A stretch of DNA of 54,229 nucleotides from a virus. Both the position numbers and the translations under genes were made by a program. The notes beneath the pieces were generated by a model. The model was not told where the DNA came from. It made no database searches and saw nothing but the letters and a program-made list of their open reading frames with translations. The stretch is from positions 1 to 54,229 of IMG/VR virus record IMGVR_UViG_3300035698_007284; one strand, given 5' to 3'. This document shows, piece after piece, positions 5,895 to 36,130 of the stretch (its first letter is position 1; every line of letters starts with the position of its first letter).

Positions 5895-7330
5895 ACTGTT
5901 ACTCTACCTCTTATTATTTCTTCAAGTTTAGACTCTCTACGCATATCCTCGACAACTTCCTGCATAATGTTCTGGTCCCCAAGATACTCTTGAGATAATT
6001 TTTTCTTCCCCTCAAGTATCCTATCCAATGAGGCATCTATTGACTTATCATTTATGGGAAGTATTATCTGGACACCACTCTTTTGAGTTATTCTATGGAG
6101 TCTATCCTCTGCTTGACTATTAAGAGCAGGGTTCCACCATCTGTCAGTAAAAAGGCAATTTGAGGCAGCTGTTAAAGTAACACCCTCTCCTAGTGTCTGA
6201 ATAGTGCCTACAATCAACTTAATGCTTGGATCTGTTTGAAATCTCTGAGCTATAGCGATTCTTTTCTCTGCTGGGACTGTTCCATCTATTGTTACATACT
6301 CTATATCTGTTTTTGCAAGATCTCTTTTTAGTAGTTCTATATACTCTTGGAAACAAGTAAAAACTACTAACTTTTCATCACCCAGTGAATCTAGAACCTC
6401 AAAGAGAAACTCTGTCTTACTACTAGGTGCTGTACTACCCAATATTCTGGGATCTAAGTTAAGTTGCCTTAGTCTAGTTAACTGTGCAAGGACTGATGGG
6501 GCCCAAAGAGGTTCTCCATAATCTAACAATATCTGTAAGTCGTTCTTCATACCATCATAAAGTTCTCTTTGGTCATCGTCCATTTCAAGTATTGCCCTTC
6601 TATAGTACTTATCTGGTAGGAAAGGTAATACCTCTTTCTTAGTTCGTCTTACAGTATATCTTTCAGTTTTCTTCCTAAGTTCATCTATATTCTTAGTCCC
6701 AAATACTTTAATAGTATTTCTCTTCTTATAGTACCAAGTGTACTGGTCATAGAACCGCATCCTTTCGTCTGGATGAAATTCCTTAGGGTTAACTATACAT
6801 AGTAGAGTGTATAGGTCTCCTGGATTATTTACAATAGGACTGCCTGACAATAAAAGTTTTTTAGTATTGGACCTAGTTGCAAAAAAGTCCATTATACCTT
6901 TAGTCATCTTTGTTTTAGGATTTCTTATCTTGTGGGCTTCATCTAGTATTATGAGGCCAAATGGATAAAGTTTAAGCACATCTAAGTGCCTCTTAGTTCT
7001 GAAAGATTCATAGTTTATTATAAAGAAAGGAGACCTATTTCCAGTAAACATATCCTCGAAAAGTGTCTCAAGTCTTCTGTACGAACCTTTCCTTGCTACT
7101 GAAGGTTCTATCCCACACCAATCCTTTATCTGTCTGGCCCATTCAAGTTGAAGTGTTTTTGGACAAACTATTAAAGTTTTTCCAGGCCACTTACCAAACT
7201 CATGTACTCCCAGGGCAGTTGGTGTTTTACCAGTTCCCATCTCACTTAGTACTAGAAAGGACTCATTAGAGTCTAACATCCTATAGACATCTTCTTTCTG
7301 GTATTCAAATAAATCTTCTGGTAAATCCAT
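5891..7330 (-). CDS. SNF2-family DEAD/H-box helicase
   Basis: 479 residues, both RecA-like lobes present. Walker A is EMGTGKT (30-36), motif II is DEAH (130-133), motif III is SGSP near 163, motif V lies around the GTIQTLGEGV segment, and motif VI is QAEDRLHRITQ. The compact length and the RW-NP-QAEDR-HR-Q signature are those of phage SNF2/RapA-like ATPases. It translocates on double-stranded DNA and probably helps replication, recombination or removal of bound host proteins. It is the largest gene of the left operon. Confidence 0.93.
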   Translation of the reverse strand: MDLPEDLFEYQKEDVYRMLDSNESFLVLSEMGTGKTPTALGVHEFGKWPGKTLIVCPKTLQLEWARQIKDWCGIEPSVARKGSYRRLETLFEDMFTGNRSPFFIINYESFRTKRHLDVLKLYPFGLIILDEAHKIRNPKTKMTKGIMDFFATRSNTKKLLLSGSPIVNNPGDLYTLLCIVNPKEFHPDERMRFYDQYTWYYKKRNTIKVFGTKNIDELRKKTERYTVRRTKKEVLPFLPDKYYRRAILEMDDDQRELYDGMKNDLQILLDYGEPLWAPSVLAQLTRLRQLNLDPRILGSTAPSSKTEFLFEVLDSLGDEKLVVFTCFQEYIELLKRDLAKTDIEYVTIDGTVPAEKRIAIAQRFQTDPSIKLIVGTIQTLGEGVTLTAASNCLFTDRWWNPALNSQAEDRLHRITQKSGVQIILPINDKSIDASLDRILEGKKKLSQEYLGDQNIMQEVVEDMRRESKLEEIIRGRVTV

Positions 7331-11432: not shown

Positions 11433-12125
11433 ATGGTAAGAAAAAGTATTGTGGTACTTTCTGGGGGTCTTGACAGCGCAGTAACAGCTTACTTCGCTAA
11501 AGGTGAACTAGGAACTGAAGGAGAGTTATATACTCTCTCATTTTCGTATGGCCAGAAACATAAAAAAGAGCTTAACTGTGCTTCCCAATTATCTATGGAG
11601 TTGGGAGCAACAGAGCATACTGTATTAAGTCTAAACCTCGGTCAATTAGTTAGATCCTCACTAATGTTTGGGGGTCAAGAGATACCAAGTGGAGGAGTTA
11701 AAGAGGGAGAAATACCTTCTACTTGGGTTCCTCAAAGAAATACAATCTTCTTGGTACTTGCTGCGGCGTATGCAGAGAAAGTAGGTGCCTCCTCAATCTA
11801 TACAGGTGTAAATGCAGTCGACTACAGTGGTTACCCTGATTGCAGACCTGACTTCATTAAAGCAGTAAACATGACCATAAACCTGGCCTCTAAAAAGTTT
11901 GTAGAGACAGGTGAAGGTTTTGATATTAAAACTCCACTAATATACCTCAGTAAACCAGATATAATTAAGATGGGTATGAAACTTGGTGTTCCCTTTGATA
12001 ATACCTGGAGTTGCTATAAAGGGGGTAAGAAGGCGTGTGGAAGCTGTGATTCTTGTCTCATCCGGAGGCAAGCATTCTTGGATGCAGATTCTATAGATCC
12101 AATAGAGTATGAGGAGGTAGGATGA
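11433..12125 (+). CDS. queC: QueC, 7-cyano-7-deazaguanine (preQ0) synthase
   Basis: 230 residues, full length. The N-type ATP pyrophosphatase loop SGGLDS is at 10-15. The zinc-binding cysteines C194, C202, C205 and C208 are all present. It converts 7-carboxy-7-deazaguanine to preQ0 using ATP and ammonia. It has a GGAGGTAAG site and is followed by folE, dpdA-like and queF genes. QueD and QueE are 6-8 kb further on, so the virus carries the entire GTP-to-preQ0 route. Confidence 0.95.
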   Translation: MVRKSIVVLSGGLDSAVTAYFAKGELGTEGELYTLSFSYGQKHKKELNCASQLSMELGATEHTVLSLNLGQLVRSSLMFGGQEIPSGGVKEGEIPSTWVPQRNTIFLVLAAAYAEKVGASSIYTGVNAVDYSGYPDCRPDFIKAVNMTINLASKKFVETGEGFDIKTPLIYLSKPDIIKMGMKLGVPFDNTWSCYKGGKKACGSCDSCLIRRQAFLDADSIDPIEYEEVG

Positions 12126-12511
12126 GTAATAAGAGAGACACAGAAGAAGATAAGGAGAATTATACAGGGGAACCAAAGGGATCTCCAGTTCCAAAATACA
12201 TACTGTTAGGTATGGGTCTTCTAGTAATCGGAATTTCTGCTATATTTATACTTATGAGTACTGGAAGTGACCCCCCTGACAAAAGGGATGCTCCTTTTAA
12301 GTTAATGACAGATAGAGGAGTATATTATTTAGTAGAGTACCAAATAAGAGCTGATGGCATCTTAGTTGGAAGAGAGTATATTGACAGTTTACAAGATGGT
12401 AGTCTTATTATAACTGGGAAAGGATTTGATATACTTTGGAGATTGCCTGAAAATCAGATGCCCCAACAGCCCATTGGTAATCCTGGAACACAAACTGGAG
12501 TAGTAGAATAA
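12122..12511 (+). CDS. Single-pass membrane protein
   Basis: 129 residues. A polar, charged N-terminus (1-24), one helix at about 26-45 and an extracytoplasmic or cytoplasmic domain of about 80 residues with DGxLVGREY and GSLIITGKGF strands. It overlaps queC by 4 bases and shares one base with folE, so it is made with the pathway genes. Role unknown. Confidence 0.65.
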   Translation: MSNKRDTEEDKENYTGEPKGSPVPKYILLGMGLLVIGISAIFILMSTGSDPPDKRDAPFKLMTDRGVYYLVEYQIRADGILVGREYIDSLQDGSLIITGKGFDILWRLPENQMPQQPIGNPGTQTGVVE

Positions 12512-13101
12512 TGGCAAAAGAAGATCTAAGAATGGGACTGGAGACATTCGTTCTAAATCTAAAACAGAGGTATAAAGGTTGGGAAGGTTATTCTCAATTC
12601 GAAGGCACTCCTGAAAGATTAGAAAGGATGTATGAAGAGTTCTGCTGGACACCTGAAGCAATAAAACTTGAGTTGGACAAAGTATTCAGAAAATTTGACC
12701 AGGACTTTGAGGAAATGATAATTGGTGGCCCATTTACTGTTTTCTCACTCTGTCCCCACCACTTCCTTCCCTGTAGGTTCACTGTATTTATAGGATATGT
12801 TCCTAAATTGGAAGATGAGCCTAAAGTGCTAGGGCTATCAAAGTTAGGTAGGATAGCAGAAATATTGGGTAAAAGACCCATTCTGCAGGAGCAGTACACA
12901 AAGGATATAACTGATGTGATACTGGAGAATCTAGGGCCAGAGGGTGTTGCAGTTAGTGTTACTGGTGAGCATAACTGTATGACATCTAGAGGAATAAAAC
13001 AACCAGATGCAAGGATAGTAACTAACATGATTAAAGGTTCCTTTTTAGATGAAGAGGCAACTAGAAATGAGTTCTTATCCTTTGCAAGGGCATATAAATA
13101 A
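12511..13101 (+). CDS. folE: FolE, GTP cyclohydrolase I
   Basis: 196 residues. Zinc ligands appear in CPHHFLP (C81, H84) and EHNCMTSRG (C156). GLSKLGRI near 108 and the QEQYT segment near 126 are family motifs. The enzyme opens GTP to 7,8-dihydroneopterin triphosphate, the first step toward preQ0. Having it on the virus frees the pathway from host folate regulation. Confidence 0.95.
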   Translation: MAKEDLRMGLETFVLNLKQRYKGWEGYSQFEGTPERLERMYEEFCWTPEAIKLELDKVFRKFDQDFEEMIIGGPFTVFSLCPHHFLPCRFTVFIGYVPKLEDEPKVLGLSKLGRIAEILGKRPILQEQYTKDITDVILENLGPEGVAVSVTGEHNCMTSRGIKQPDARIVTNMIKGSFLDEEATRNEFLSFARAYK

Positions 13102-13110
13102 GGAGATAAG

Positions 13111-13863
13111 ATGTTATTAGCTTTAGAATGGCCCCTAGACCTTATGGAGGAATTCCAGGAACTAGCTGACTTCGATTTTATACTTACTCACTTAATGGTT
13201 AAGGGCACACCTTACTATGAGTACTACAAAAATAGTAACAAGTATAAAATGTTAGATAACAGTACTAATGAACTTGAAACTCCCTGTGCCTGGGCAGATA
13301 TTAAAGAGGTTGCAGATAGTATAGGACCTAATAAAATTTGCCCTCCCGATTACTTAGGTGATAGCACAAAGACACTTAAGGCAATAGAAGATGCACTTAT
13401 GGAGTATGAACCTGATCAACTATTACCTATCATACAAGGCTCTACTCATGGTGAGGCATTATATGCTGCTGAAAAGATAGAAGGCTGGGGATGTACCTCA
13501 ATTGCAGTGCCTTACGATATAACTTTGGACAGACGAACTGCTGGTTTAGAGGCTATGGCTGAATCCCGGTTTCAGGTAGTAACTGACCTTATACTGAACA
13601 GAACCTTTCATTGGATACATCTATTGGGCTGTACAGGCACTGATGAACTACTTTCTTATGGGAAGGAAGAATTTGAAACAGTACTTTCAATAGATACTGG
13701 TTTTCCTATAACACAGGGACTCCACGGGATACAGTTGGGCAAAGATGAGCCTTTGGATAAGAAAACTATGCTTGACTTCGATAAAAAGAAAGTAGATGTT
13801 GGTATGGAAACTCTTAGTATATGCTATTACAATATAGCGTATCTTAGAGCCTGTATAACTTAA
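13111..13863 (+). CDS. dpdA: DpdA-like 7-deazaguanine transglycosylase
   Basis: 250 residues, a compact TIM-barrel of the tRNA-guanine transglycosylase superfamily. Visible landmarks are MLDN (47-50), PPDYLGD (78-84), IIQGSTHGE (107-115), HLLGCTG (170-176) and SIDTGFP (193-199), where D195 is the likely nucleophile. It lacks the usual C-terminal zinc domain of tRNA enzymes, as in short phage DpdA proteins, which exchange guanine in DNA for a 7-deazaguanine. Location between folE and queF supports a DNA-modifying role. A tRNA substrate cannot be excluded. Confidence 0.85.
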   Translation: MLLALEWPLDLMEEFQELADFDFILTHLMVKGTPYYEYYKNSNKYKMLDNSTNELETPCAWADIKEVADSIGPNKICPPDYLGDSTKTLKAIEDALMEYEPDQLLPIIQGSTHGEALYAAEKIEGWGCTSIAVPYDITLDRRTAGLEAMAESRFQVVTDLILNRTFHWIHLLGCTGTDELLSYGKEEFETVLSIDTGFPITQGLHGIQLGKDEPLDKKTMLDFDKKKVDVGMETLSICYYNIAYLRACIT

Positions 13864-13874
13864 AGGAGGAATGC

Positions 13875-14351
13875 ATGAACCCGGTAAGAGTAGATTTAGA
13901 CCAGGACCTAGTGGCCAAAATAAAAGGGCTGACTGTAACCTATGGAGTGGAACCCCAACCAGGGTTACTAATTCCTATTCCAAATAGGTTCCCAGAAAAT
14001 ATCTATATGGTAGACATAACTACAAGTGAGTTCACAAGTCTTTGTCCACTGCACACAGCACAGCCTGACTATGCCACTATTGGTATAGAGTATACCCCAG
14101 GAGAGAGCCTAGTCGAGTTAAAGTCGTTGAAACTTTACCTAGTTAGTTACAGACAGTGTCCTGTCTTCCATGAAGAGATCTGTAATCTGATCTTAAATGA
14201 CCTAGTGGAGGCTATTGAACCACTAGAAATGCACATCAAAGGTATCTTCACAACAAGAGGTGGACTAGACACAACTGTTCACTCCCATTATACAAGACCT
14301 CTTAGCCCTGAAGAGATAGAGGCCTATAAAAGGCAAGTAGATGTGGGTTAG
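13875..14351 (+). CDS. queF: QueF, preQ0 reductase
   Basis: 158 residues, the single-domain (YkvM-like) length. SEFTSLCPLHTAQPDY (51-66) carries the nucleophilic C57 and the acid D65. LKSLKLYLVSYR (82-93) is the NADPH-binding motif, and FHE is at 98-100. It reduces the nitrile of preQ0 to the aminomethyl group of preQ1. In this viral operon it implies that preQ1, not preQ0, is the base to be inserted. Confidence 0.93.
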   Translation: MNPVRVDLDQDLVAKIKGLTVTYGVEPQPGLLIPIPNRFPENIYMVDITTSEFTSLCPLHTAQPDYATIGIEYTPGESLVELKSLKLYLVSYRQCPVFHEEICNLILNDLVEAIEPLEMHIKGIFTTRGGLDTTVHSHYTRPLSPEEIEAYKRQVDVG

Positions 14352-14850
14352 AGGAGCCACTCCAGGGGACGTTGATATAATAGTGTCAATGGCCTCCGAC
14401 TACAAACCCTATATAAATCCCTACGTCCTTAACCCCACCCAAATAATGGCCTACTTAGATGAGTGGCTAGTTGGAGTAGAGAATGATCAGGTAGTAGGGT
14501 CTGTTCACTATGTTACATTAAGTAATATAGTATCAGATAAGGCTGTTAGGAACTATGCCTACTTAAAGCATATGAGGCAGGTTGATGAAAAAGTTCTTCA
14601 GATGTGTGTAGATAATGGTGGAATGTTCCTAGGTCAGATAACCTGTCCTGGTAAAGGCAGCCTAAGGGTACTGATTGACTATTTAAAGTCTGAATTCTCT
14701 CCAATATACTCATGGTTATCAATAACAAGCCCAGTTATAAGTTACTATCAAGAGAAATTGGGCTTTGCCTTTTCACAGGAGTCTTATGGGTTCATGAATA
14801 TCTATAAAGGTGACTATTCTTCTTTTAGGTTGGGAACATGGCAGAGATAG
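14341..14850 (+). CDS. GNAT-like acyltransferase
   Basis: 169 residues, overlapping queF by 11 bases. Layout fits the GNAT fold: IRGATPGDVD-like start, EWLVGVENDQVVGSV strand pair, a central GQITCPGKGS where acetyl-CoA would bind, and the C-terminal SPVISYYQEKLGFAFSQES, typical of GNAT beta6-alpha4. The substrate is unknown. Its tight link to queF suggests action on preQ1 or on preQ1-DNA (inference). An unrelated protein acetyltransferase is possible. Confidence 0.65.
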   Translation: MWVRGATPGDVDIIVSMASDYKPYINPYVLNPTQIMAYLDEWLVGVENDQVVGSVHYVTLSNIVSDKAVRNYAYLKHMRQVDEKVLQMCVDNGGMFLGQITCPGKGSLRVLIDYLKSEFSPIYSWLSITSPVISYYQEKLGFAFSQESYGFMNIYKGDYSSFRLGTWQR

Positions 14851-15602: not shown

Positions 15603-16051
15603 TATTTGCGGTGTGGATAGATGGCGCGTGTGGGCCGGTAAATCCCGGTGGAGTAGCTTCCTATGGTGTAATTATTGTAGAGTTAGGTATACCTGGCAAT
15701 ATTACGCTAAATGGTATAGTAGGCAGTGGTGAGCTTATGAGTAACAATGTAGGAGAGTATAGCGCACTAATAGCATTTTTAGAGTGGTATGCTAATAGAA
15801 TAGAAAGTACAAAAGAAAGGCAAGGGATAATAATCTATTCTGACTCTCAATTAGTAGTAAATCAGATGGGGGGTAACTGGAGATGCCATCCTGGTAAGTT
15901 GTATACACAGTATCACCATAAGGCGAAAGGACTTATTCTGGATTTAGGGTTAAAAAATCTTATACAGTTTGTTTGGGTTTCAAGAGATCAAAACACAGCA
16001 GCGGATACTGCCTCAAGGATGGCATTGACAGACGCAGGTATAAATATTTAG
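15599..16051 (+). CDS. rnhA: Ribonuclease HI
   Basis: 150 residues from GTG 15599, preceded by GGAGG at 8 bases and overlapping the upstream stop (GTGA). Active-site acids are in WIDGACG, NVGEYSAL, YSDSQLV and the final AADTAS segment. It degrades RNA in RNA:DNA hybrids, for example primers or R-loops at the origin. Confidence 0.9.
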   Translation: MIFAVWIDGACGPVNPGGVASYGVIIVELGIPGNITLNGIVGSGELMSNNVGEYSALIAFLEWYANRIESTKERQGIIIYSDSQLVVNQMGGNWRCHPGKLYTQYHHKAKGLILDLGLKNLIQFVWVSRDQNTAADTASRMALTDAGINI

Positions 16052-16059
16052 GAGGTATG

Positions 16060-16605
16060 ATGACTATAGAGATTAAAAGAATCTTCGAAGGTATGAGGCA
16101 GGAAGGATTAAATTCAGGCGTGCCTATGACCTTTGTGGAGTTAGGTAAAGGTAAGTCTGTTTATATTGAACCAGAACAGTTAGTAGGGGACTTAATCAGG
16201 TCAGCAAGGTTTCCCTGGGTCTGTATAATAGGTCCAGATGCAACCCAGGTAGGAATGGGCACTGTTGTTAGAGGACTCCACCAGTGTAGTCATAGTATAG
16301 AAATGGAGATGTCAGCAACAAGAAAAGATCCTGGATGGTTAAGTTCAGTTACTAAATGGTGTGTTGAGTATGCCGAAAATCCACTATTCAACTTTGGTGC
16401 TCTAAGGTCAGGAGACATGATAAAGTTTCATGTAAGTGGAGTAGGTGATATAGACATACTAAGGGTAGCAATGGAGGAACTTAAATCCTTGCCTTGTACT
16501 AAATTTGTTAAAGTTGATAGAACTGTTGACAAAGAGACCTATTCCAAATTAATAGGTGGAGTATTGGATTGTATTCAGAGAAAGGATAGAGTAAGGGTAT
16601 ACTAA
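16060..16605 (+). CDS. QueE-like protein without the radical-SAM cysteines
   Basis: 181 residues. From its start it lines up with the true QueE at 19385: IKRIFEGMRQEGLNSGVPMT against INELFYSIQGEGIHAGIPMV, then FVELGKG against FIRLQGC. The CxxxCxxC loop that holds the iron-sulfur cluster is missing and shortened. Later FPWVCIIGPDA, IEMEMSAT and MIKFHVSG align with RWICITGGEP, VEIETNGS and QVKFVVGK. The glycines of the SAM-binding GGEP are lost too. So it cannot be a radical SAM enzyme; a structural or regulatory partner is likely. Second ATG (16060) chosen for spacing from GGAGG. Confidence 0.7.
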   Translation: MTIEIKRIFEGMRQEGLNSGVPMTFVELGKGKSVYIEPEQLVGDLIRSARFPWVCIIGPDATQVGMGTVVRGLHQCSHSIEMEMSATRKDPGWLSSVTKWCVEYAENPLFNFGALRSGDMIKFHVSGVGDIDILRVAMEELKSLPCTKFVKVDRTVDKETYSKLIGGVLDCIQRKDRVRVY

Positions 16606-16772
16606 TGTTTCCCCATGAATTTCCAGACTGTAAACCACCGAAGGTAAAAGTACCTAAGGAAAAGAAGGCTAGAAAATCTATAAACTGGTCTAATATACTG
16701 GGGCCTGGACTAGCAGCCTTTGGAGTTATAGGTATGCTTATTCTTTATACAGTAGTGAGGTTTTTAAGTTAA
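16605..16772 (+). CDS. Small single-pass membrane protein
   Basis: 55 residues. A basic, lysine-rich N-terminal half (1-28) and one hydrophobic helix (about 30-52). It is linked by TAATG overlaps on both sides, strong evidence that it is translated. Function unknown. Confidence 0.6.
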   Translation: MFPHEFPDCKPPKVKVPKEKKARKSINWSNILGPGLAAFGVIGMLILYTVVRFLS

Positions 16773-17764
16773 TGGTCCTATCAGAAGCAGTAATAGCATC
16801 TCCAGCACCTAACAATCATGCCCCAGGCTTTTCAGTAACTGGTATATCCCAGTGTTCCTTTGGAACCTACATAAACTACCATAAGTTAGATAAAAAGGTT
16901 TGGGGTAAAGGCAGTCACTTATTAGGAGAGGATGGAAACTGGCAAGAAGCCCAAATGGTTGCTCAACTCCAAAGAGCAGGTTTTAAAACTAGATTCACAG
17001 GTGATGACCAATTAGAGTTAATTGTAGGTGATGCTGAAATACCTGGTCACCCTGATGGCATGATTGAAGTAGATGTTAAAGAGGGTGGACTTGAATGTAA
17101 GGCAATGAATACAAGAAGGTATACTGGTTTCCATAAGAAAAGATGGGAATCAGAACCTAGTATAAAAGTTCAAGTACAAACTTATTTATCTGAGCTTAAA
17201 AAGAGGTTCGGTATAGGAGGCATGTGGGTATATTATAAACATAAGGATTCCTGTAATCCCAGTGACTTCTTTGAACCTTTTGATTATGAGTATACTATGC
17301 CAATACTGGAAGCGACAGATGAAATTATTCTTCATGGAGTAATACCAAAAAAAGAGATGAAGGATATGTGTTCTGTCTGTTATCATAATATATACTGTTG
17401 GGGAACACCTGTAGTTGATATGCAGAATCCTAACTTCTTAGATGATGATGATATAATAGCAAAATGGTTTAAAGGCAAAGTATGGAAGGATGCAGGTAAA
17501 TCTATGTATGATGATGCCTGTGATGAACTAAAGGCTAGATTGGGTAATGATGAACACTTAATTATATCAGGTATGGTAGAGGGTAAATACGTTGACAGTG
17601 AAGAAGACATGGCGCCTGGTGGTGTTCAAATTAAGAAGATAACCAAAACAAAGATGAGTTTTAATGAGGTGAAGTTCGTAAAGAGATTCGGTGCTGAGAA
17701 TCTTCATCTTGTTTTAGATAAAGATAAATGGGATGAAAAGAGAACTAGTAAGTACAGATTTTAG
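16772..17764 (+). CDS. Cas4/RecB-like PD-(D/E)XK exonuclease
   Basis: 330 residues. It starts with an SVTGISQCSFGTYINY segment as in Cas4/RecB nucleases, followed by IPGHPDGMI (catalytic D), GLECKAMN (E-x-K), a Q-TYLSEL helix (motif with Q) and a cysteine group CSVCYHNIYC. The cysteines could hold an iron-sulfur cluster as in Cas4. It probably resects DNA ends for the Rad52-like annealing protein. The C-terminal 100 residues are unassigned. Confidence 0.75.
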   Translation: MVLSEAVIASPAPNNHAPGFSVTGISQCSFGTYINYHKLDKKVWGKGSHLLGEDGNWQEAQMVAQLQRAGFKTRFTGDDQLELIVGDAEIPGHPDGMIEVDVKEGGLECKAMNTRRYTGFHKKRWESEPSIKVQVQTYLSELKKRFGIGGMWVYYKHKDSCNPSDFFEPFDYEYTMPILEATDEIILHGVIPKKEMKDMCSVCYHNIYCWGTPVVDMQNPNFLDDDDIIAKWFKGKVWKDAGKSMYDDACDELKARLGNDEHLIISGMVEGKYVDSEEDMAPGGVQIKKITKTKMSFNEVKFVKRFGAENLHLVLDKDKWDEKRTSKYRF

Positions 17765-17926: not shown

Positions 17927-18298
17927 ATGAAAGTAGCAATAGAGAAATCATTTACTTTTCATTCTGCTCACAGACTACCAAACCATCCGGGTAAGTGCAG
18001 TAATATACATGGGCATACTTACCAACTAGATGTAAAAGTATCTGGGACTCCTCTAGACGATGGCAGAGGTGACTCAGGTATGGTAATGGATTTTGGAGAT
18101 CTTAAAGAAATAGTAACAGAGACAATAATAGACAAATATGACCACCAAGATCTTAATAACCACTTTGAGAATCCAACAGCAGAAAATATGGCTGCTATAA
18201 TCTGGTTAACTTTAGTAGATGTCTTACCCCATAAAGTTACACTAGAGAAAATCAGACTTTGGGAAACAGAGACAGCCTGTGCAGAGGTTGTTAGATAA
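17927..18298 (+). CDS. queD: QueD, 6-carboxytetrahydropterin synthase
   Basis: 123 residues. Zinc histidines H15 (FHSAH), H28 and H30 (IHGH); catalytic C24; D72-H73 in YDHQD; E86 in PTAEN; and the final WETE segment are all present. It converts dihydroneopterin triphosphate to 6-carboxy-tetrahydropterin, feeding QueE. It lies in the second half of the pathway, separated from queC and folE by recombination genes. Confidence 0.95.
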   Translation: MKVAIEKSFTFHSAHRLPNHPGKCSNIHGHTYQLDVKVSGTPLDDGRGDSGMVMDFGDLKEIVTETIIDKYDHQDLNNHFENPTAENMAAIIWLTLVDVLPHKVTLEKIRLWETETACAEVVR

Positions 18299-18866: not shown

Positions 18867-19392
18867 GTTAGTCACAGATTTACTCTCAGAGTGTAAAAAG
18901 GGAGATCACGACTGGGTGGAGATATCTAACTTGTCCCTTATAAGTACAGGATACAGAAAAGTAATTAAATGGTGTAATAACTGTGGTTCAATCATAGGGG
19001 TTCATGACTTAGATAGTAGACTTCTTAAACCAGAGGATATTATAGGTACTACTAAACCTGTTATATATCAAGAGTATTTAGAAAGGAGGAAATTAATGGG
19101 AGACAAAATGAGACTAACAGCTAAGTTGGCAGTATTTGCTGCCTCACTGGTATGGGTAATGTGGTGGTTATATCTCTTAATAATAGGTTATGACTACTTT
19201 GAAAATGTAGTTATACACTATGGAGAGATAGAAGAGGCCTGGTTCGTAGACGTTCTGGGAACTGGTTATGTAGTGACTGGCGTAATAGTAGCGATCTCAG
19301 TTGCCTTAAAAGGTTTTAACTTCGTTGCACGCTGGGAAAGAGACAAAGGTGTAGTAGTAAAAGAAGAAGAAGAAGAAGAGAATAATGGCTAG
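18859..19392 (+). CDS. Two-helix membrane protein with zinc-like N-terminus
   Basis: 177 residues from TTG 18859 after AAGGAGG. Residues 12-42 hold a C, H and CNNC set. Two helices lie at about 88-108 and 132-152, and the tail is a run of glutamates. An in-frame ATG at 19096 (residue 80) has its own perfect AAAGGAGG site, so a 98-residue product carrying only the membrane part may also be made. Confidence 0.6.
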   Translation: MDKLVTDLLSECKKGDHDWVEISNLSLISTGYRKVIKWCNNCGSIIGVHDLDSRLLKPEDIIGTTKPVIYQEYLERRKLMGDKMRLTAKLAVFAASLVWVMWWLYLLIIGYDYFENVVIHYGEIEEAWFVDVLGTGYVVTGVIVAISVALKGFNFVARWERDKGVVVKEEEEEENNG

Positions 19393-20086
19393 TAAAGTAA
19401 AGAGTCTTTCGATAAATGAACTATTCTATTCAATCCAAGGAGAAGGCATACACGCTGGAATACCAATGGTATTTATCAGATTACAGGGATGTAATCTAGC
19501 ATGTGACTGGTGTGATACAGCATATGCTAGAACTGTCTGTTCTCCTAACACCTCAAATGAGAAATTACTAGAAGAGGTAAGTTCATTATTCCCTATGCAG
19601 GCCCCGGGGGAGAGATGGATCTGTATAACTGGAGGGGAACCCCTAATCCAAAGAGAAGCGCTAGGGCCATTTCTCCACGAACTGAAGGCAAGAGGCTATA
19701 GAGTAGAAATAGAAACTAATGGGTCTCAAATCAAACCTGATTGGTGGATGGCTGCAGATAGTTGGGTAGTAGATGTTAAATGTCCCTCCTCTGGTGAGAA
19801 AGTAGATATTGATAAACTTACTATGTGGTTTAATTCTAGGCCATGTGACCAGGTAAAATTTGTAGTTGGTAAAGAAGAAGATTGTATCTTCGCTGAAAAA
19901 ATACTTACAGACTTTTATGGGGGATTAAAATCCTTTGACCCTACTGTTCTAATAAGTCCTGTTATATTAAAGAGCGCTGACAGGTATACTCTTCAATTAG
20001 CAACTAATCTATGTAAGAGATTAAACCTAAGATTTTCACTTCAGATCCATAAAGTTATTTGGGATCCTAAAGAAAGAGGTGTCTAG
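19385..20086 (+). CDS. queE: QueE, 7-carboxy-7-deazaguanine synthase
   Basis: 233 residues. The radical SAM cluster motif is CNLACDWC (CxxxCxxC, residues about 36-43), followed by ITGGEPL, VEIETNGS and KFVVGK. It converts 6-carboxytetrahydropterin to 7-carboxy-7-deazaguanine with SAM and iron-sulfur chemistry. It overlaps the preceding gene by 8 bases. A cluster-less paralogue lies at 16060-16605. Confidence 0.93.
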   Translation: MASKVKSLSINELFYSIQGEGIHAGIPMVFIRLQGCNLACDWCDTAYARTVCSPNTSNEKLLEEVSSLFPMQAPGERWICITGGEPLIQREALGPFLHELKARGYRVEIETNGSQIKPDWWMAADSWVVDVKCPSSGEKVDIDKLTMWFNSRPCDQVKFVVGKEEDCIFAEKILTDFYGGLKSFDPTVLISPVILKSADRYTLQLATNLCKRLNLRFSLQIHKVIWDPKERGV

Positions 20087-24714: not shown

Positions 24715-25431
24715 ATGGATATAGGCTTCGTTGTACCAATTTGCCTACTAGACTCAGTTAAGGCTAGTAAATTCCAAGTATGCTACGCCTCTGTAGCTAG
24801 ACAGAGTGTTGAGTACAGTGAGTTCTTTAAGCAAAGAAGTACAGATACTATCGTTATTCTGGATCACACTCCCCTTCTGCCCAGGAAACCTGTAAAGTCA
24901 ATACTTGCCTTAACAGAAAGTATAGAGCCTAATGCAGTAGTGTTACCTAATATTGACTACGCCTTAAAAAAGACACTTCAGTTATCCTTTGGAGTTCTCA
25001 ACTCTTTACATGATAGTCAGTTTAGTAAATGTATAGGAGTTATACAGGGTCAGAACATAGATGAGTTAGCAATATGCTATAGTGAACTAAAGACTGTATG
25101 TGGAATAATTGGATTGCCTGCCTCAGTGGAGAAAATCATCTCTAGAAATACTTTAATAGAGAAACTTTCTATAACTAAACCCTTAATATACCTGGAAGTA
25201 TTCTGCGATCCAGTAAAAGAGGTACCAACCACAGAAAAAGCATTAGGTATAATTACCTCACTACCAGCAAAGCTGGCCTACGAAGGTAGGAGTTTGGCAA
25301 ATTACACTCCAACACCTGCACCATTAGATTTCTTTAATCCTTTTAAACCAAACATGGATCTACTTATAAAGAATATGTCTAATTACAGAAATGTAGTTGA
25401 TATGGTAAGGAGTATAGAAAACCATGAGTAA
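24715..25431 (+). CDS. Second transglycosylase (TGT/DpdA)-like protein, catalytic residues lost
   Basis: 238 residues from ATG 24715. It aligns along its length with the DpdA-like protein at 13111: VILDHT against KMLDNS, PNAVVLPN against PNKICPPD, CIGVIQGQNIDE against LLPIIQGSTHGE. The aspartate of the PPD motif is N79 here. The SIDTGFP nucleophile segment corresponds to GIITSLP (178-184), without aspartate. It is probably a non-catalytic TIM-barrel partner, as in the eukaryotic TGT heterodimer. Homology fairly sure, role inferred. Confidence 0.55.
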   Translation: MDIGFVVPICLLDSVKASKFQVCYASVARQSVEYSEFFKQRSTDTIVILDHTPLLPRKPVKSILALTESIEPNAVVLPNIDYALKKTLQLSFGVLNSLHDSQFSKCIGVIQGQNIDELAICYSELKTVCGIIGLPASVEKIISRNTLIEKLSITKPLIYLEVFCDPVKEVPTTEKALGIITSLPAKLAYEGRSLANYTPTPAPLDFFNPFKPNMDLLIKNMSNYRNVVDMVRSIENHE

Positions 25432-31047: not shown

Positions 31048-31235
31048 TGGTACCCAATAATCCTGTACCAATAATGATCTCGATAATTATAGGGATACCC
31101 ATGGCCTCTGGTATAGTAGAATTAACTGAAGGTAATATACTTAAAGGTATACTTCCTATTCTAATAGGTGTCCTTGGATTAGTAATCTATCTAATAATAA
31201 TTAAGAAATGGTATACAAGGAAAAAGCATGATTGA
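31047..31235 (+). CDS. Two-helix membrane protein
   Basis: 62 residues. Helices at about 5-25 and 30-52, basic C-terminus (KKWYTRKKH). It overlaps the polymerase gene by 8 bases. Not recognised. Confidence 0.55.
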   Translation: MVPNNPVPIMISIIIGIPMASGIVELTEGNILKGILPILIGVLGLVIYLIIIKKWYTRKKHD

Positions 31236-33699
31236 CCTAAGTTTATGTAACTGTGAAGAATGTCCTATGCAGGACAGTGACATGGTCCCAACAAGGGACA
31301 TCTTCCTTTCACCTTATGGTGTTCCATATCAAGCGGTAATAAGGAATGGAGTATTTACTCATAGATTCAAGAGAGTACAGTATCAAGAAAAAGAGGAAGA
31401 TGTAACAATACTATTTATAGGTATGGCCCCTGCCTGGGAAGAAGTCGCACAGTGTAGCTTCTTTGTTGGTGCATCTGGAAAACTGCTGAGGAAAGTAAGT
31501 GATCAGTTAGATGTTCCAAAAATAGTAGTAACTAATACACTTATTTGCAGGATAAAAGAAGGCTCAACTGAATCTGAAATAACAAGGGCCAGTAGATGCT
31601 GTAGTGGTAGACTAGATAAAGAAATAGAGGATATGCAGCCTGACTTAACTATAGTACTTGGCAACTTACCTCTTAAGAGGATATTAGGTCTTGAGGGAGT
31701 TCAGAAGGTAGAAGGTAAAATAATAGACAGTGACAAGTATGGGCCTGTACTACCAATTACACATCCGGCTGCTGCACTTAGAAATCCAGACTTTTATTTA
31801 GACTTTGTTTATGCCTTTAAAAAGGGTATTGACTTTCTAAATGGAACTTGGAAACAGATAACCTGGGTACCAGAGACAGTAGTTGCTGATGCTACAAATA
31901 TAACAGATATCTGCCAGATAATAAATAATGCACCAGAGGTAGCAATAGATTTAGAAACCACAAGAGGTGGCCTACATCCTTATGGTAGGGAACCTGATGG
32001 CATAAGATGTGCTGCAATTGCAGTAGAAGAGAGAACTGCTTACATTATACCTGGAGAGAGTTCAGTTCACTTTGAGCCTCATCCTAACTATATGCAACAT
32101 CCAGGTTTAATAGAGGTAATGAATAAGTCCAATACTATAATGCATAATGGCCAGTTTGATAATGCCTTCCTTTGGCAAGCAGGGTATGATACTACTATAG
32201 GGTATGATACTATGCTTGCAGCCTACGTTAAAGATGAGAGATCCTGGGCAATAGGATTAAAGGCCCTATCACAGAGAATACTAGGTGCACCTGAGTGGGA
32301 AGAAGACCTTGGTAGATGGAGACCTACTTCCAAGTCAAGTTTCGACTTAGTGCCAGATGATGTCTTATATGGATACGCATCCTGGGATGTAACTTGTACC
32401 TATATGCTTAAAAAGCACTTTGAGAAGATAGTAACCGAAGAATACTTCTTTGATCTACTTATGCCCTGTACCAATATGTTTGTAGATCTAAGACATAGTG
32501 GTGCTAGAGTAAATCCTGGTATGTTAATGAAAACAGATACATTCATAGCAGAGGAACTATTAGCTACAGAGAAAAGATGGTATGAGATGGCAGGGTATAG
32601 ATACAATCCCATGTCCCCTCAAGATAAATGCGATTATCTCTATGATGTATTAAAACTTCCTATGGACAAGCACCTGGGTAGAACATCTAGTAAAAAGTAT
32701 TTAGAGAAGTTTGCTGACTTGGAACAGGTTCAACTACTAATGGAAATTGGTAGGATGAATAAATTAAGATCAACCTATGTACTATCAGTAGCAAACTTCA
32801 TGGACAATGATTATCTCATTCATCCTAACATTAAACTATTTAGTACAGTAACAGGTAGAGCATCTGCTGAAGACCCTTCTGTAATGAATATAGTAAGAAA
32901 TAAAGACATAAAAGCAATGTATGAGCCTAGGGATAAAGATAAGTGGATGATGAGTGCTGACCAGAAGCAGATGGAGTTAAGATGGTACGTAATAGTTACT
33001 AGGGATGAATACCTTAAGAATTTACTATTAACAAGTGACCCCCATGACATAATAAATCAGGAGGTGAATAGATTATCAAATGGTGACTATTCTAGAGGTA
33101 AAACAAAGACAGCAGTTTTTGGAGTCATATATTTAAGAGGAGCAGAATCCCTTGCTAGAGGATTTAATTTAACTTTGCCTTCTGCTAACCTTTTAAAGAA
33201 CACAATAAGGAATTTAGTTCCCACAATAGGGGATTATCATGAGTCGACACTAAATGAAATAAAGGCAACTGGTGAATTAACAACATACTTTGGTAGGAAA
33301 AGAAGAATGGGGTTATTAACTAAAGATAACATAAATGAAATCCAAAGAATGGGTGTTAACTTTAAGATTCAGTCTCCCGCATCAGATACTAACTTATATG
33401 GTATGCTTCATGCCTATAATAATCAAAAGAGATTGGGTTGCAGGCCATTATGGCCCATCCATGATGATGTACTAATGGAGATTGATCACCCTGACTGTTG
33501 CCTCCAAATCAAGAAAGAACTAGAAGAATGTACAATGGCTCTAGTTGATAACTATATGCAGTTTACAATAGAACCTAAAGCAGGTAAGAATTGGGGATAT
33601 ATGAAACCTATTTGTCCCACTTGCGGTAAGCAGGTAGAAGTAGTAGACATTAAAAAGCATTGGGATGGATTAGAGTATCATAGTAGTTGTCTAAATTAA
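31228..33699 (+). CDS. Uracil-DNA-glycosylase / family A DNA polymerase fusion
   Basis: 823 residues. Residues 1-205 resemble family 4 UDG: cysteines 7, 9 and 12, GMAPAWEE (65-72), TNTLICR, C123/C124 and the HPAA motif (179-182). Residues 230-400 are a 3'-5' exonuclease with DLET (241-244), HNGQFD (306-311) and YASWD (383-387). The polymerase has motif A DQKQMELR (D578), motif B RGKTKTAVFGVIY (623-635) and motif C HDD (745-747). A CPTC...C zinc-like tail ends it. Phage SPO1 polymerase has a similar N-terminal UDG-like domain. This is probably the main replicase. Confidence 0.9.
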   Translation: MIDLSLCNCEECPMQDSDMVPTRDIFLSPYGVPYQAVIRNGVFTHRFKRVQYQEKEEDVTILFIGMAPAWEEVAQCSFFVGASGKLLRKVSDQLDVPKIVVTNTLICRIKEGSTESEITRASRCCSGRLDKEIEDMQPDLTIVLGNLPLKRILGLEGVQKVEGKIIDSDKYGPVLPITHPAAALRNPDFYLDFVYAFKKGIDFLNGTWKQITWVPETVVADATNITDICQIINNAPEVAIDLETTRGGLHPYGREPDGIRCAAIAVEERTAYIIPGESSVHFEPHPNYMQHPGLIEVMNKSNTIMHNGQFDNAFLWQAGYDTTIGYDTMLAAYVKDERSWAIGLKALSQRILGAPEWEEDLGRWRPTSKSSFDLVPDDVLYGYASWDVTCTYMLKKHFEKIVTEEYFFDLLMPCTNMFVDLRHSGARVNPGMLMKTDTFIAEELLATEKRWYEMAGYRYNPMSPQDKCDYLYDVLKLPMDKHLGRTSSKKYLEKFADLEQVQLLMEIGRMNKLRSTYVLSVANFMDNDYLIHPNIKLFSTVTGRASAEDPSVMNIVRNKDIKAMYEPRDKDKWMMSADQKQMELRWYVIVTRDEYLKNLLLTSDPHDIINQEVNRLSNGDYSRGKTKTAVFGVIYLRGAESLARGFNLTLPSANLLKNTIRNLVPTIGDYHESTLNEIKATGELTTYFGRKRRMGLLTKDNINEIQRMGVNFKIQSPASDTNLYGMLHAYNNQKRLGCRPLWPIHDDVLMEIDHPDCCLQIKKELEECTMALVDNYMQFTIEPKAGKNWGYMKPICPTCGKQVEVVDIKKHWDGLEYHSSCLN

Positions 33700-33716: not shown

Positions 33717-34361
33717 ATGGAACCCAGACCTTACAAAGGAAGACCTAAGGTAGCTCAGATGCTATACAAAAAGGGATATCTAAGTAGACTGCCCTATCAG
33801 ATAGATAGATCTGATTTAAGGTACGATGATGGAGTAGATATAGTTTACGAACTAAAAAATCTACCTCCAGAAAAGTTTGGAGAGGCCTCAGATATTCTAT
33901 TAGGGGCAGCAACTGAAGAGCTTAATAGATATAAGGATATACAATTTAAGTTCGCAACTATAGATATTAAACTTAATAGAACAGCAAGAGGTAGGAAGAA
34001 GGTAGCAGAAGTAAGATCCTATACAGCTGCTAAGCATTATGATGCAGATGTAATGATTTATGGGGAGAAAACATTAGGGTATGAACTACCTGACTGGGTG
34101 GGTAAAAAACCCTTCCTTATAAATAAAATAGAAGAGATCCTTGCGATACCTGAGGGCCCAAGTCCTGGCCCTTTTGTTAAGAAACAGAAACCCTTTACTG
34201 TATTAAGAATGACGTTTTCAGTAAGGGTGGGTAAACAGACACCTGAAAAGGTTGAAGGGGCCAAGGGAGTTTTCCATAAAAGTAAGTTCGTTGATCTGCC
34301 TACAAGTGATCCACAAGGTATAGATTACTGGGGTGGGGAAAAACCAGGAACTATTAGATGA
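33717..34361 (+). CDS. Unknown basic protein between the polymerases (terminal-protein candidate)
   Basis: 214 residues, basic, no membrane segment, start after AGAGG. Residues 75-115 are strongly basic (KLNRTARGRKK) and the C-terminal third is rich in K, P and G. It overlaps the family B polymerase start by 4 bases. In phi29-like genomes the terminal protein gene lies directly before the polymerase gene, so position alone suggests a protein primer. No sequence proof. Confidence 0.6.
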   Translation: MEPRPYKGRPKVAQMLYKKGYLSRLPYQIDRSDLRYDDGVDIVYELKNLPPEKFGEASDILLGAATEELNRYKDIQFKFATIDIKLNRTARGRKKVAEVRSYTAAKHYDADVMIYGEKTLGYELPDWVGKKPFLINKIEEILAIPEGPSPGPFVKKQKPFTVLRMTFSVRVGKQTPEKVEGAKGVFHKSKFVDLPTSDPQGIDYWGGEKPGTIR

Positions 34362-36130
34362 TACCTACATTTGATATAGAATTACTAGGATGGACTGACC
34401 CAGTAGCTTTAGGCTACTATGATGGAACCACTTATCACGAGTTCCTAAAGACCTCTGATGAAGCAAACGTGGTAAGTGAGTTCCTTGATCACTTAATAAA
34501 ATACGATATGATGGGAACCAAAATCTATGCCCATAGAGCAAAGGACTGTGACAATAAGTTTATACTAAGAGAGTTATACAGAAGGGGAGAAAGAATAGGC
34601 TTCGTAGGAGGAACAGGCAGATTAACTTGGGAAGACCAATTAATAGTATTTGAAGACAGTTACTTAACACTTACAAGGGCACTAAGAGCTCTCTGTGAGG
34701 CATTTGGTGTAGAAAGAAAACTTTACTGGGACCATAGTAAAACTAAACCTATCTGGGAAATGGCGAATGCACTAGATGCCTTTAGAGCGTATCTAAAAAG
34801 AGACGTACTAGGTCTATCAGAGGTAATGGACAAATACACAGAGACTCTATTAGAAAACTTTGGTATACTACCTTCCCTAACAATGCCACTTACAGCAGTT
34901 AAAGCCTTTGATAAAAGATACTACTCAGTTGGTGAGATACACTCAAATGAGCAGGTTGAAGGCCCTATAAGGGAAGCGACATATGGGGGTAGGAACGAGG
35001 TCTTTAAAAGGTACGGTAAAGGAGTATATATGTATGACGTAAGAAGTATGTATACTTCTTGCTATAATACAGGAGTCCCTATAGGGGCACTTAAATGGTG
35101 TCCTCCAGACATAGACAAGCCTGGTATAGTCTATGCTAAAGTAAAAGTGCCTGATAGCACTCACTTAGGGCCTCTTCCATATAGGTTTAGATCCAATAAC
35201 ATGACAACATCTAGACTTATTTTTCCAGTAGGGGAGTTCCAGGGTTGGTGGGATGTCAGAGAACTAAAAATGGCAATACAGATGGGTGTTGATGTAACTA
35301 TCATAAAGCAACTAACAGGAGAACACTATCCTGCATTACAAGAATTTGGTGCAAAGATCTGCGAATTAAGAAGTTCAGCCCCTAATAAACAGATGAGTGG
35401 CGTTTGGAAACTCTTTGGTGTTAGATTAAGTGGAAAGTTGGGCCAAAGAAGAATTTCAAGTGAGATTAGACACGCACAAGATATAGAGGATTTCACAGGT
35501 TGGCTGCCAATAGATGAAGAGGAATGCTACCACGAAAAGGTAAGTACTAGTAAGGGTAGAAGATCCCCCTATATAAAACCTGCTGTAAACATGGCAATAC
35601 GGGCAGAGGCAAGGATAAGGCATATGGAAAGGTTAATGGAGGTATATACAAGAAAGGGGCAGTTGTATTACTGTGATAACGATTCTATATTCTCAAATAA
35701 ACCATTATTTATAGGTCAGGATGCTGGTGAACTTCAATTAGTAGATCATGCAACTGAAGCCTACTTCATTAGACCTAAATTTTATGGGTATGAGGACGAT
35801 AGGGGAAACTTCAAACAGAGAACATCGGGGTATAAAGACTTTAAATTAAACTTATCTGATTTTAAGAGGATATTAAAAGGAGAGAAAATACTAAACACTT
35901 TTGAGACACTTAGTGGTTGGAAAACTGCTATGTCAGAAGAGGGACTCAAGAGGATAGAGTCAAAGAGATCAGTTAAGGTAACTAGAGAGTTTGAAAATAG
36001 AGTAACAAAGGGAATTTATACTTTCCCACTAAAACTTAGAACTAGCCCTAGTGGAGGACTATCAGTTCTGAACGTAGATAACCCAGATGAGTTTTTGAGG
36101 ACTTCAAAGCAGGGACATGAGGATTCTTAA
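34358..36130 (+). CDS. Family B DNA polymerase, protein-primed (phi29-like) type
   Basis: 590 residues, close to the phi29 enzyme. Exonuclease motifs: DIE (6-8), an ExoII region near 58-65 and YLKRD (145-149). The YxGG-type motif is YGGR (209-212). Polymerase motif A is DVRSMYTS (D227), motif B is KLFGVRLSGKLGQ (351-363), motif C is YCDNDS (438-443, D440 and D442), and KFY (474-476) is the KxY motif. The 125 residues between motifs A and B leave room for the TPR1 insertion of protein-primed enzymes. Last gene of the rightward block. Confidence 0.85.
   Translation: MIPTFDIELLGWTDPVALGYYDGTTYHEFLKTSDEANVVSEFLDHLIKYDMMGTKIYAHRAKDCDNKFILRELYRRGERIGFVGGTGRLTWEDQLIVFEDSYLTLTRALRALCEAFGVERKLYWDHSKTKPIWEMANALDAFRAYLKRDVLGLSEVMDKYTETLLENFGILPSLTMPLTAVKAFDKRYYSVGEIHSNEQVEGPIREATYGGRNEVFKRYGKGVYMYDVRSMYTSCYNTGVPIGALKWCPPDIDKPGIVYAKVKVPDSTHLGPLPYRFRSNNMTTSRLIFPVGEFQGWWDVRELKMAIQMGVDVTIIKQLTGEHYPALQEFGAKICELRSSAPNKQMSGVWKLFGVRLSGKLGQRRISSEIRHAQDIEDFTGWLPIDEEECYHEKVSTSKGRRSPYIKPAVNMAIRAEARIRHMERLMEVYTRKGQLYYCDNDSIFSNKPLFIGQDAGELQLVDHATEAYFIRPKFYGYEDDRGNFKQRTSGYKDFKLNLSDFKRILKGEKILNTFETLSGWKTAMSEEGLKRIESKRSVKVTREFENRVTKGIYTFPLKLRTSPSGGLSVLNVDNPDEFLRTSKQGHEDS

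Follow-up and report, generated by a model that had tools for sequence, protein, structure and literature searches.

A cluster-less QueE paralogue kept beside the intact enzyme in a virus lineage, a putative partner subunit

7-Carboxy-7-deazaguanine synthase (QueE) is a homodimer. In the E. coli enzyme (EcQueE), Q13, E15 and R27 bind the substrate, C31, C35 and C38 hold the cluster and T40 binds Mg, while SAM residues are predicted at G94, S136 and Q189 (PMC11142719). EcQueE also blocks septation without need of catalysis: the dead R27A variant still gives filamentation, and the inhibition requires C31, C35 and the E45-W67 region (PMC11142719). Elsewhere in metabolism, enzymes are paired with catalytically dead twins. 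In trypanosomatids, such a twin activates deoxyhypusine synthase (DHS) 3000-fold and AdoMetDC 1200-fold, two enzymes that act at different points in the same pathway (PMC3663545), and a structure is available for the prozyme/DHS precedent of dead-paralogue activation (PMC5201418). Likewise, eukaryotic TGT requires the non-catalytic QTRT2, with which it forms a heterodimer (PMC6165067). Regulatory dead paralogues are known for several enzymes, among them a trypanosomatid decarboxylase, deoxyhypusine synthase and eukaryotic TGT, but no such case came to light for a radical SAM enzyme. A preliminary description of the locus reported here knew of no described cluster-less QueE retained beside an active one, and this agrees with the literature that we searched, which covers few subscription papers and yielded neither a cluster-less QueE nor a dead paralogue kept alongside any radical SAM enzyme.

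The window analysed here, a stretch of 54,229 nucleotides (positions 1 to 54,229 of IMG/VR virus record IMGVR_UViG_3300035698_007284), carries an intact QueE gene at 19385-20086 (plus strand; 233 aa; PHROG 2076, E 4e-47, and NCBIfam QueE models), whose product keeps the three cluster cysteines, GGEP, the substrate arginine and QxHK. Upstream of it on the same strand lies a second QueE-like gene, hereafter X, at 16060-16605. Its previously assigned coordinates are correct: the frame opens with ATG at 16060, closes with a stop at 16605 and encodes 181 aa. An AGGAGG ribosome-binding site, read from the sequence, precedes it at 16050-16055 (plus strand) at the stop of an RNase H-like gene, and the GC content of the gene is normal.

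X gave no significant match in Pfam, PHROGs or NCBIfam, and its relationship to QueE emerges from direct comparison. BLASTP aligns X with the window QueE at E=5e-9, with 22% identity across 126 aa. The Smith-Waterman score is 94 (z=13.5), a value that none of 2000 shuffles reached, and the best score of the other 88 open reading frames in the window against X is 45. Aligned profile to profile with hhalign, X and QueE match with a probability of 99.4% and E=4.4e-21, columns 1-178 against 7-215; the unrelated profiles QueF and TGT-like, run as controls, gave E values of 0.23 and 0.55. Together, these results exclude a chance resemblance. The recovered alignment also contains all three of the stretches that the preliminary description had matched between X and QueE. 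An AlphaFold2 model of X, built from five X sequences only, reached a pLDDT of 91.2 and a pTM of 0.85 and is a QueE-type barrel. Foldseek searches of the PDB with this model returned six matches below E 1e-3, all of them QueE (from B. subtilis, E. coli and B. multivorans), the best at E 3.2e-7 and with query-normalised TM scores of 0.69-0.73 among the six; the top viral match is annotated as QueE too. As such, sequence, profile, fold and the phylogeny described below bear out the earlier assignment of X as a QueE paralogue. The two outcomes that, by the earlier description, would speak against it, a predicted fold other than the QueE-type barrel and the lack of a significant profile match, were both looked for and not obtained.

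X belongs to a small and restricted family. Relatives were reached via QueE and PolA neighbours: two from IMG/VR relatives of QueE (L002 and L003), in which a second QueE-like frame matches X by phmmer at E 2e-28 and 2e-9, and two from relatives of the virus's PolA (G013 and G014), which carry X at E 1.5e-33 and 2.5e-37. Including the window, this gives five members, each an open frame on its own virus contig together with an intact QueE gene; the four others are 28-33% identical to the X of the window. The retention of X beside an active QueE, as previously proposed, thus holds in every record, QueE being called active from its intact motifs. An X-profile search of 80 further viral records from the QueE search found X in none; each had at most one place of similarity, weak (E 1e-6 or worse) and in the size range of a QueE frame. 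Scanning viral contigs with the single X sequence yielded no relatives, a scan of genome contigs found no X, tblastn against phage records returned nothing up to E 1, and the window PolA as sole query found no relative. The survey of other viral preQ clusters suggested earlier therefore places X in five records from a single lineage of viruses and in none of the other viral QueE records examined, and since these five records represent one lineage, conservation and co-occurrence among them do not count as independent events. Even so, they bear on whether X is a pseudogene in decay or an error of assembly. The loss of every catalytic residue and the low identity to QueE would be in keeping with decay, but X persists as an open frame on five contigs with common conserved residues at about 30% identity, and it has a clear ribosome-binding site, normal GC and a confident model. 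This explanation was rejected on the conservation across the five contigs and is highly improbable.

The five sequences specify what has been lost. All three cluster cysteines are absent from every X: the column of the first holds K, R or T, and the columns of the remaining cysteines, the following aspartate and the Mg-binding threonine are deleted, so that the deletion of the CxxxCxxC loop noted for the window holds for the whole family. The reported change of GGEP to GPDA is accurate for the window, and the motif differs in the other four members; across the five, the second glycine is P, E, S, E or K and the glutamate is D or N. In EcQueE numbering, substrate residue Q13 has become arginine in all five and R27 has become E, K, D, K or V. 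Lys132 and the C-terminal histidine are also gone throughout, the chain stopping short of the QxHK motif. In line with this, the Radical_SAM and Fer4_12 Pfam models match none of the five X proteins, while the window QueE matches both. What remains is the N-terminal EGxxxG loop together with structural residues. X is almost certainly a QueE-derived pseudoenzyme, and, judged from these residues, a conversion of CPH4 to CDG without the cluster is unlikely.

Could X nonetheless have acquired a new activity in the deazaguanine pathway that needs no cluster? Its newly invariant residues, Arg13 at the former substrate site, Gly65 and Gly67, would be compatible with one, but the other invariant polar residues (C55, D119 and R179) are common in the QueEs of the lineage too and look structural, and no catalytic constellation is visible. 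Moreover, X is kept both with QueF (window, L002 and L003) and where no QueF was seen (G013), and we regard a new enzymatic role as distinctly unlikely. A remnant of the QueE pocket might instead let X carry or chaperone a pterin or deazaguanine intermediate (CPH4 or CDG) and hand it over among QueD, QueE and QueC. The substrate loop at the N-terminus is the best-kept part of X (G16 and G20 throughout, E15 and F25 each in four of five), the arginine that replaces the substrate glutamine could bind a carboxylate (for the roles of Q13 and E15, see PMC11142719), and X shares one gene cluster with QueD. Against such a carrier, the carboxylate-clamping arginine (R27 of the solved QueEs) and the C-terminal QxHK are lost in all five proteins, which makes this function rather unlikely.

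In a tree of the five X and 26 QueE sequences, X is monophyletic (100/100), and a branch with 97/90 support, among long branches, unites X with the five QueEs of its lineage, L006 and L004 against 19 other viral QueEs. Searched with the X profile, the five QueEs of the lineage score highest (53-40 bits), and the remaining QueEs reach 30 bits or less. W78, C80, P118 and D155 of the window QueE are common to all five X and W120 to four; these shared residues mark the lineage QueEs and are uncommon in other QueEs. Because X forms a single group and shares lineage-specific residues with its neighbouring QueEs, its most likely source, going by these sequences, is one duplication inside this viral QueE clade, an event that we infer from its descendants.

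A second pair of paralogues in the same pathway resembles the first. The window encodes two DpdA/TGT-like proteins, copy A (13111-13863, plus strand), which retains the nucleophile aspartate and whose family profile matches the DNA-guanine transglycosylase 7ui4 at E 0.002, and copy B (24715-25431, plus strand), which lacks it and was connected to copy A by hhalign (E 1.5e-13). Pfam yielded no TGT match for the viral DpdA/TGT-like proteins; a joint profile of copies A and B with two others has the solved 7ui4 as its best PDB match (E 0.002). Copy B alone does not match 7ui4, and its top Foldseek matches are other TIM barrels, with no TGT in the top 50, so that it is called TGT-like by virtue of its paralogy with copy A and of the joint-profile match. 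In the 7ui4 alignment, the aspartate of 'SIDS' falls at the column of 'xDTG' in copy A, where copy B has T or S. This substitution is found in all five copies B, the one in L003 with an insert there, while the aspartate is kept in the aligned copies A and in single-copy relatives. Copy B is thus a second candidate pseudoenzyme of the pathway to which X belongs, as far as its sequence indicates. Its distribution coincides with that of X: all five records with X have it, and the 12 comparison records lack it, three of these having a single relative. Such a split would arise by chance once in 6188 if the records were independent; as the five form one lineage, the co-occurrence of copy B and X is an association by descent and not an independent test. 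With X beside QueE and copy B beside copy A, two enzymes of one pathway would each have a dead twin. It is possible, if doubtful, that the lineage steers its pathway for DNA bases through two prozymes, X being obligatory or activating for QueE and the Asp-less DpdA/TGT-like protein the same for DpdA.

Several further genes of the pathway surround X on the plus strand of the window, namely QueC (11433-12125, TIGR00364 above cut-off), FolE (12511-13101, NCBIfam FolE E 1.5e-42, below the curated cut-off), the preQ1 synthase QueF (13875-14351, TIGR03139 above cut-off) and QueD (17927-18298, TIGR03367 above cut-off). In records that include the region, the genes follow one another as QueC, FolE, copy A, (QueF), X, a Cas4-like gene, QueD, QueE and copy B, with other genes interspersed. 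The Cas4-like nuclease gene (16772-17764, plus strand; Pfam Cas4 E 2e-4, just below the gathering score) is located downstream of X in each of the five records and, in some, is separated from it by one or two small genes. This raises the question whether X acts outside QueE altogether, on the Cas4-like nuclease, on a host QueE or on a host division or defence protein. Beyond the position of the nuclease gene, the filamentation caused by catalytically dead EcQueE R27A offers a precedent for such an activity (PMC11142719). However, adjacency to the nuclease is weak evidence, as the order of many genes is conserved here, and the reading of X as a division inhibitor is weakened because X lacks the cysteines and the whole E45-W67 segment that the septation block by EcQueE needs. 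We regard a partner outside QueE as unlikely.

The neighbourhood and the related records show additional features in their own right. In L002, a SPFH/prohibitin-like frame, named from a reading of its sequence, lies between X and the Cas4-like gene (6169-7119). Adjoining QueF in the window, 14341-14850 encodes a weakly acetyltransferase-like product (PHROG 1249, E 0.026) that might be a modifier of the preQ1 aminomethyl group; by reading, a similar sequence occurs near QueF in L002 inside a longer protein. The window further encodes a DNA polymerase A with a fused N-terminal uracil-DNA-glycosylase superfamily domain (31228-33699, Pfam UDG E 1e-15) and also a B-type polymerase (34358-36130). 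In L013 (1457-3064), a viral QueE frame is broken by a long in-frame intein-like insert exactly within CxxxCxxC, flanked by CDF before and HN-CDT after. Finally, record G001 has two QueC-like genes by inspection (L038, 4515-5357 and 8067-8759, minus strand), one standard and one divergent at 280 aa.

The available data are compatible with a model in which X arose by one duplication of the lineage's own QueE. The barrel would then have persisted while the iron-sulphur loop, GGEP with its role in SAM binding and the ligands of substrate and Mg disappeared, and X would now be a catalytically inert subunit that partners the viral QueE. The two proteins would pair as a heterodimer where QueE otherwise forms a homodimer, and X would raise or hold QueE activity during infection. 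Of the roles suggested earlier (a subunit, a substrate carrier or a new activity), we favour that of a subunit because X is without every catalytic and most substrate residues, and because dead-paralogue precedents (prozymes and QTRT2) exist and QueE is itself a homodimer; as an explanation it is nearly an even prospect, and contact with QueE and its activation are presumed in it. The QueE-type homology and fold, the single X group, the presence of all five members beside an intact QueE and the disabled DpdA/TGT-like paralogue in the same five records and none of the 12 others are consistent with a partner subunit. On the other hand, the QueEs of the lineage look complete, with no catalytic residue missing, and ought to function by themselves. 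L006, the closest QueE lacking an X, shows that an enzyme of this type can exist without one. The X gene lies nearer to the Cas4-like nuclease than to QueE, and a single virus lineage is the source of all members. The model lends itself to direct tests, since a phage QueE, that of phage 9g, has been assayed by complementation of an E. coli queE mutant (PMC6884629).

If X does activate or stabilise QueE, a radical SAM enzyme would depend on a second, cluster-free barrel, with bearing on how oxygen-sensitive radical SAM enzymes stay active. No radical SAM enzyme with a dead paralogue as a subunit is known to us, and X, as a QueE subunit, would be the first case. The second disabled paralogue in the pathway, furthermore, suggests that converting homodimers into heterodimers is a viral habit.

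Compared with described systems, X is closest to QueE itself (PDB 5th5, 5tgs, 6nhl and 4njg), with which it shares the fold, full-length homology, the N-terminal EGxxxG loop and a place in the QueC/FolE/QueD/QueE cluster. Unlike QueE, it lacks the cluster cysteines, the Mg threonine, the substrate arginine, GGEP, the conserved lysine and QxHK, and it has 181 aa against the 233 of the window QueE. The DpdA/TGT-like copies can be set, by description, beside DpdA and its phage subfamily DpdA2, as their family profile matches the DNA-guanine transglycosylase 7ui4; the viral proteins have about 240-350 aa against 436 for DpdA, and copy B is without the aspartate. Copy B is also comparable to QTRT2, a disabled TGT paralogue, a likeness that is again one of description, and unlike copy B, QTRT2 acts on tRNA. 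The trypanosomatid AdoMetDC and DHS prozymes offer the broadest parallel. By sequence, X bears one mark of a prozyme-type pseudoenzyme, being a paralogue unfit for catalysis that shares its genome with a parent enzyme that looks intact, and in both cases two enzymes of one pathway have a twin. Activation by the prozymes is proven and concerns eukaryotes, whereas for X it is presumed and concerns a virus and different enzymes. Should QueE and DpdA both prove to depend on their disabled paralogues, the polyamine pathway of trypanosomes would have a parallel in this virus lineage.
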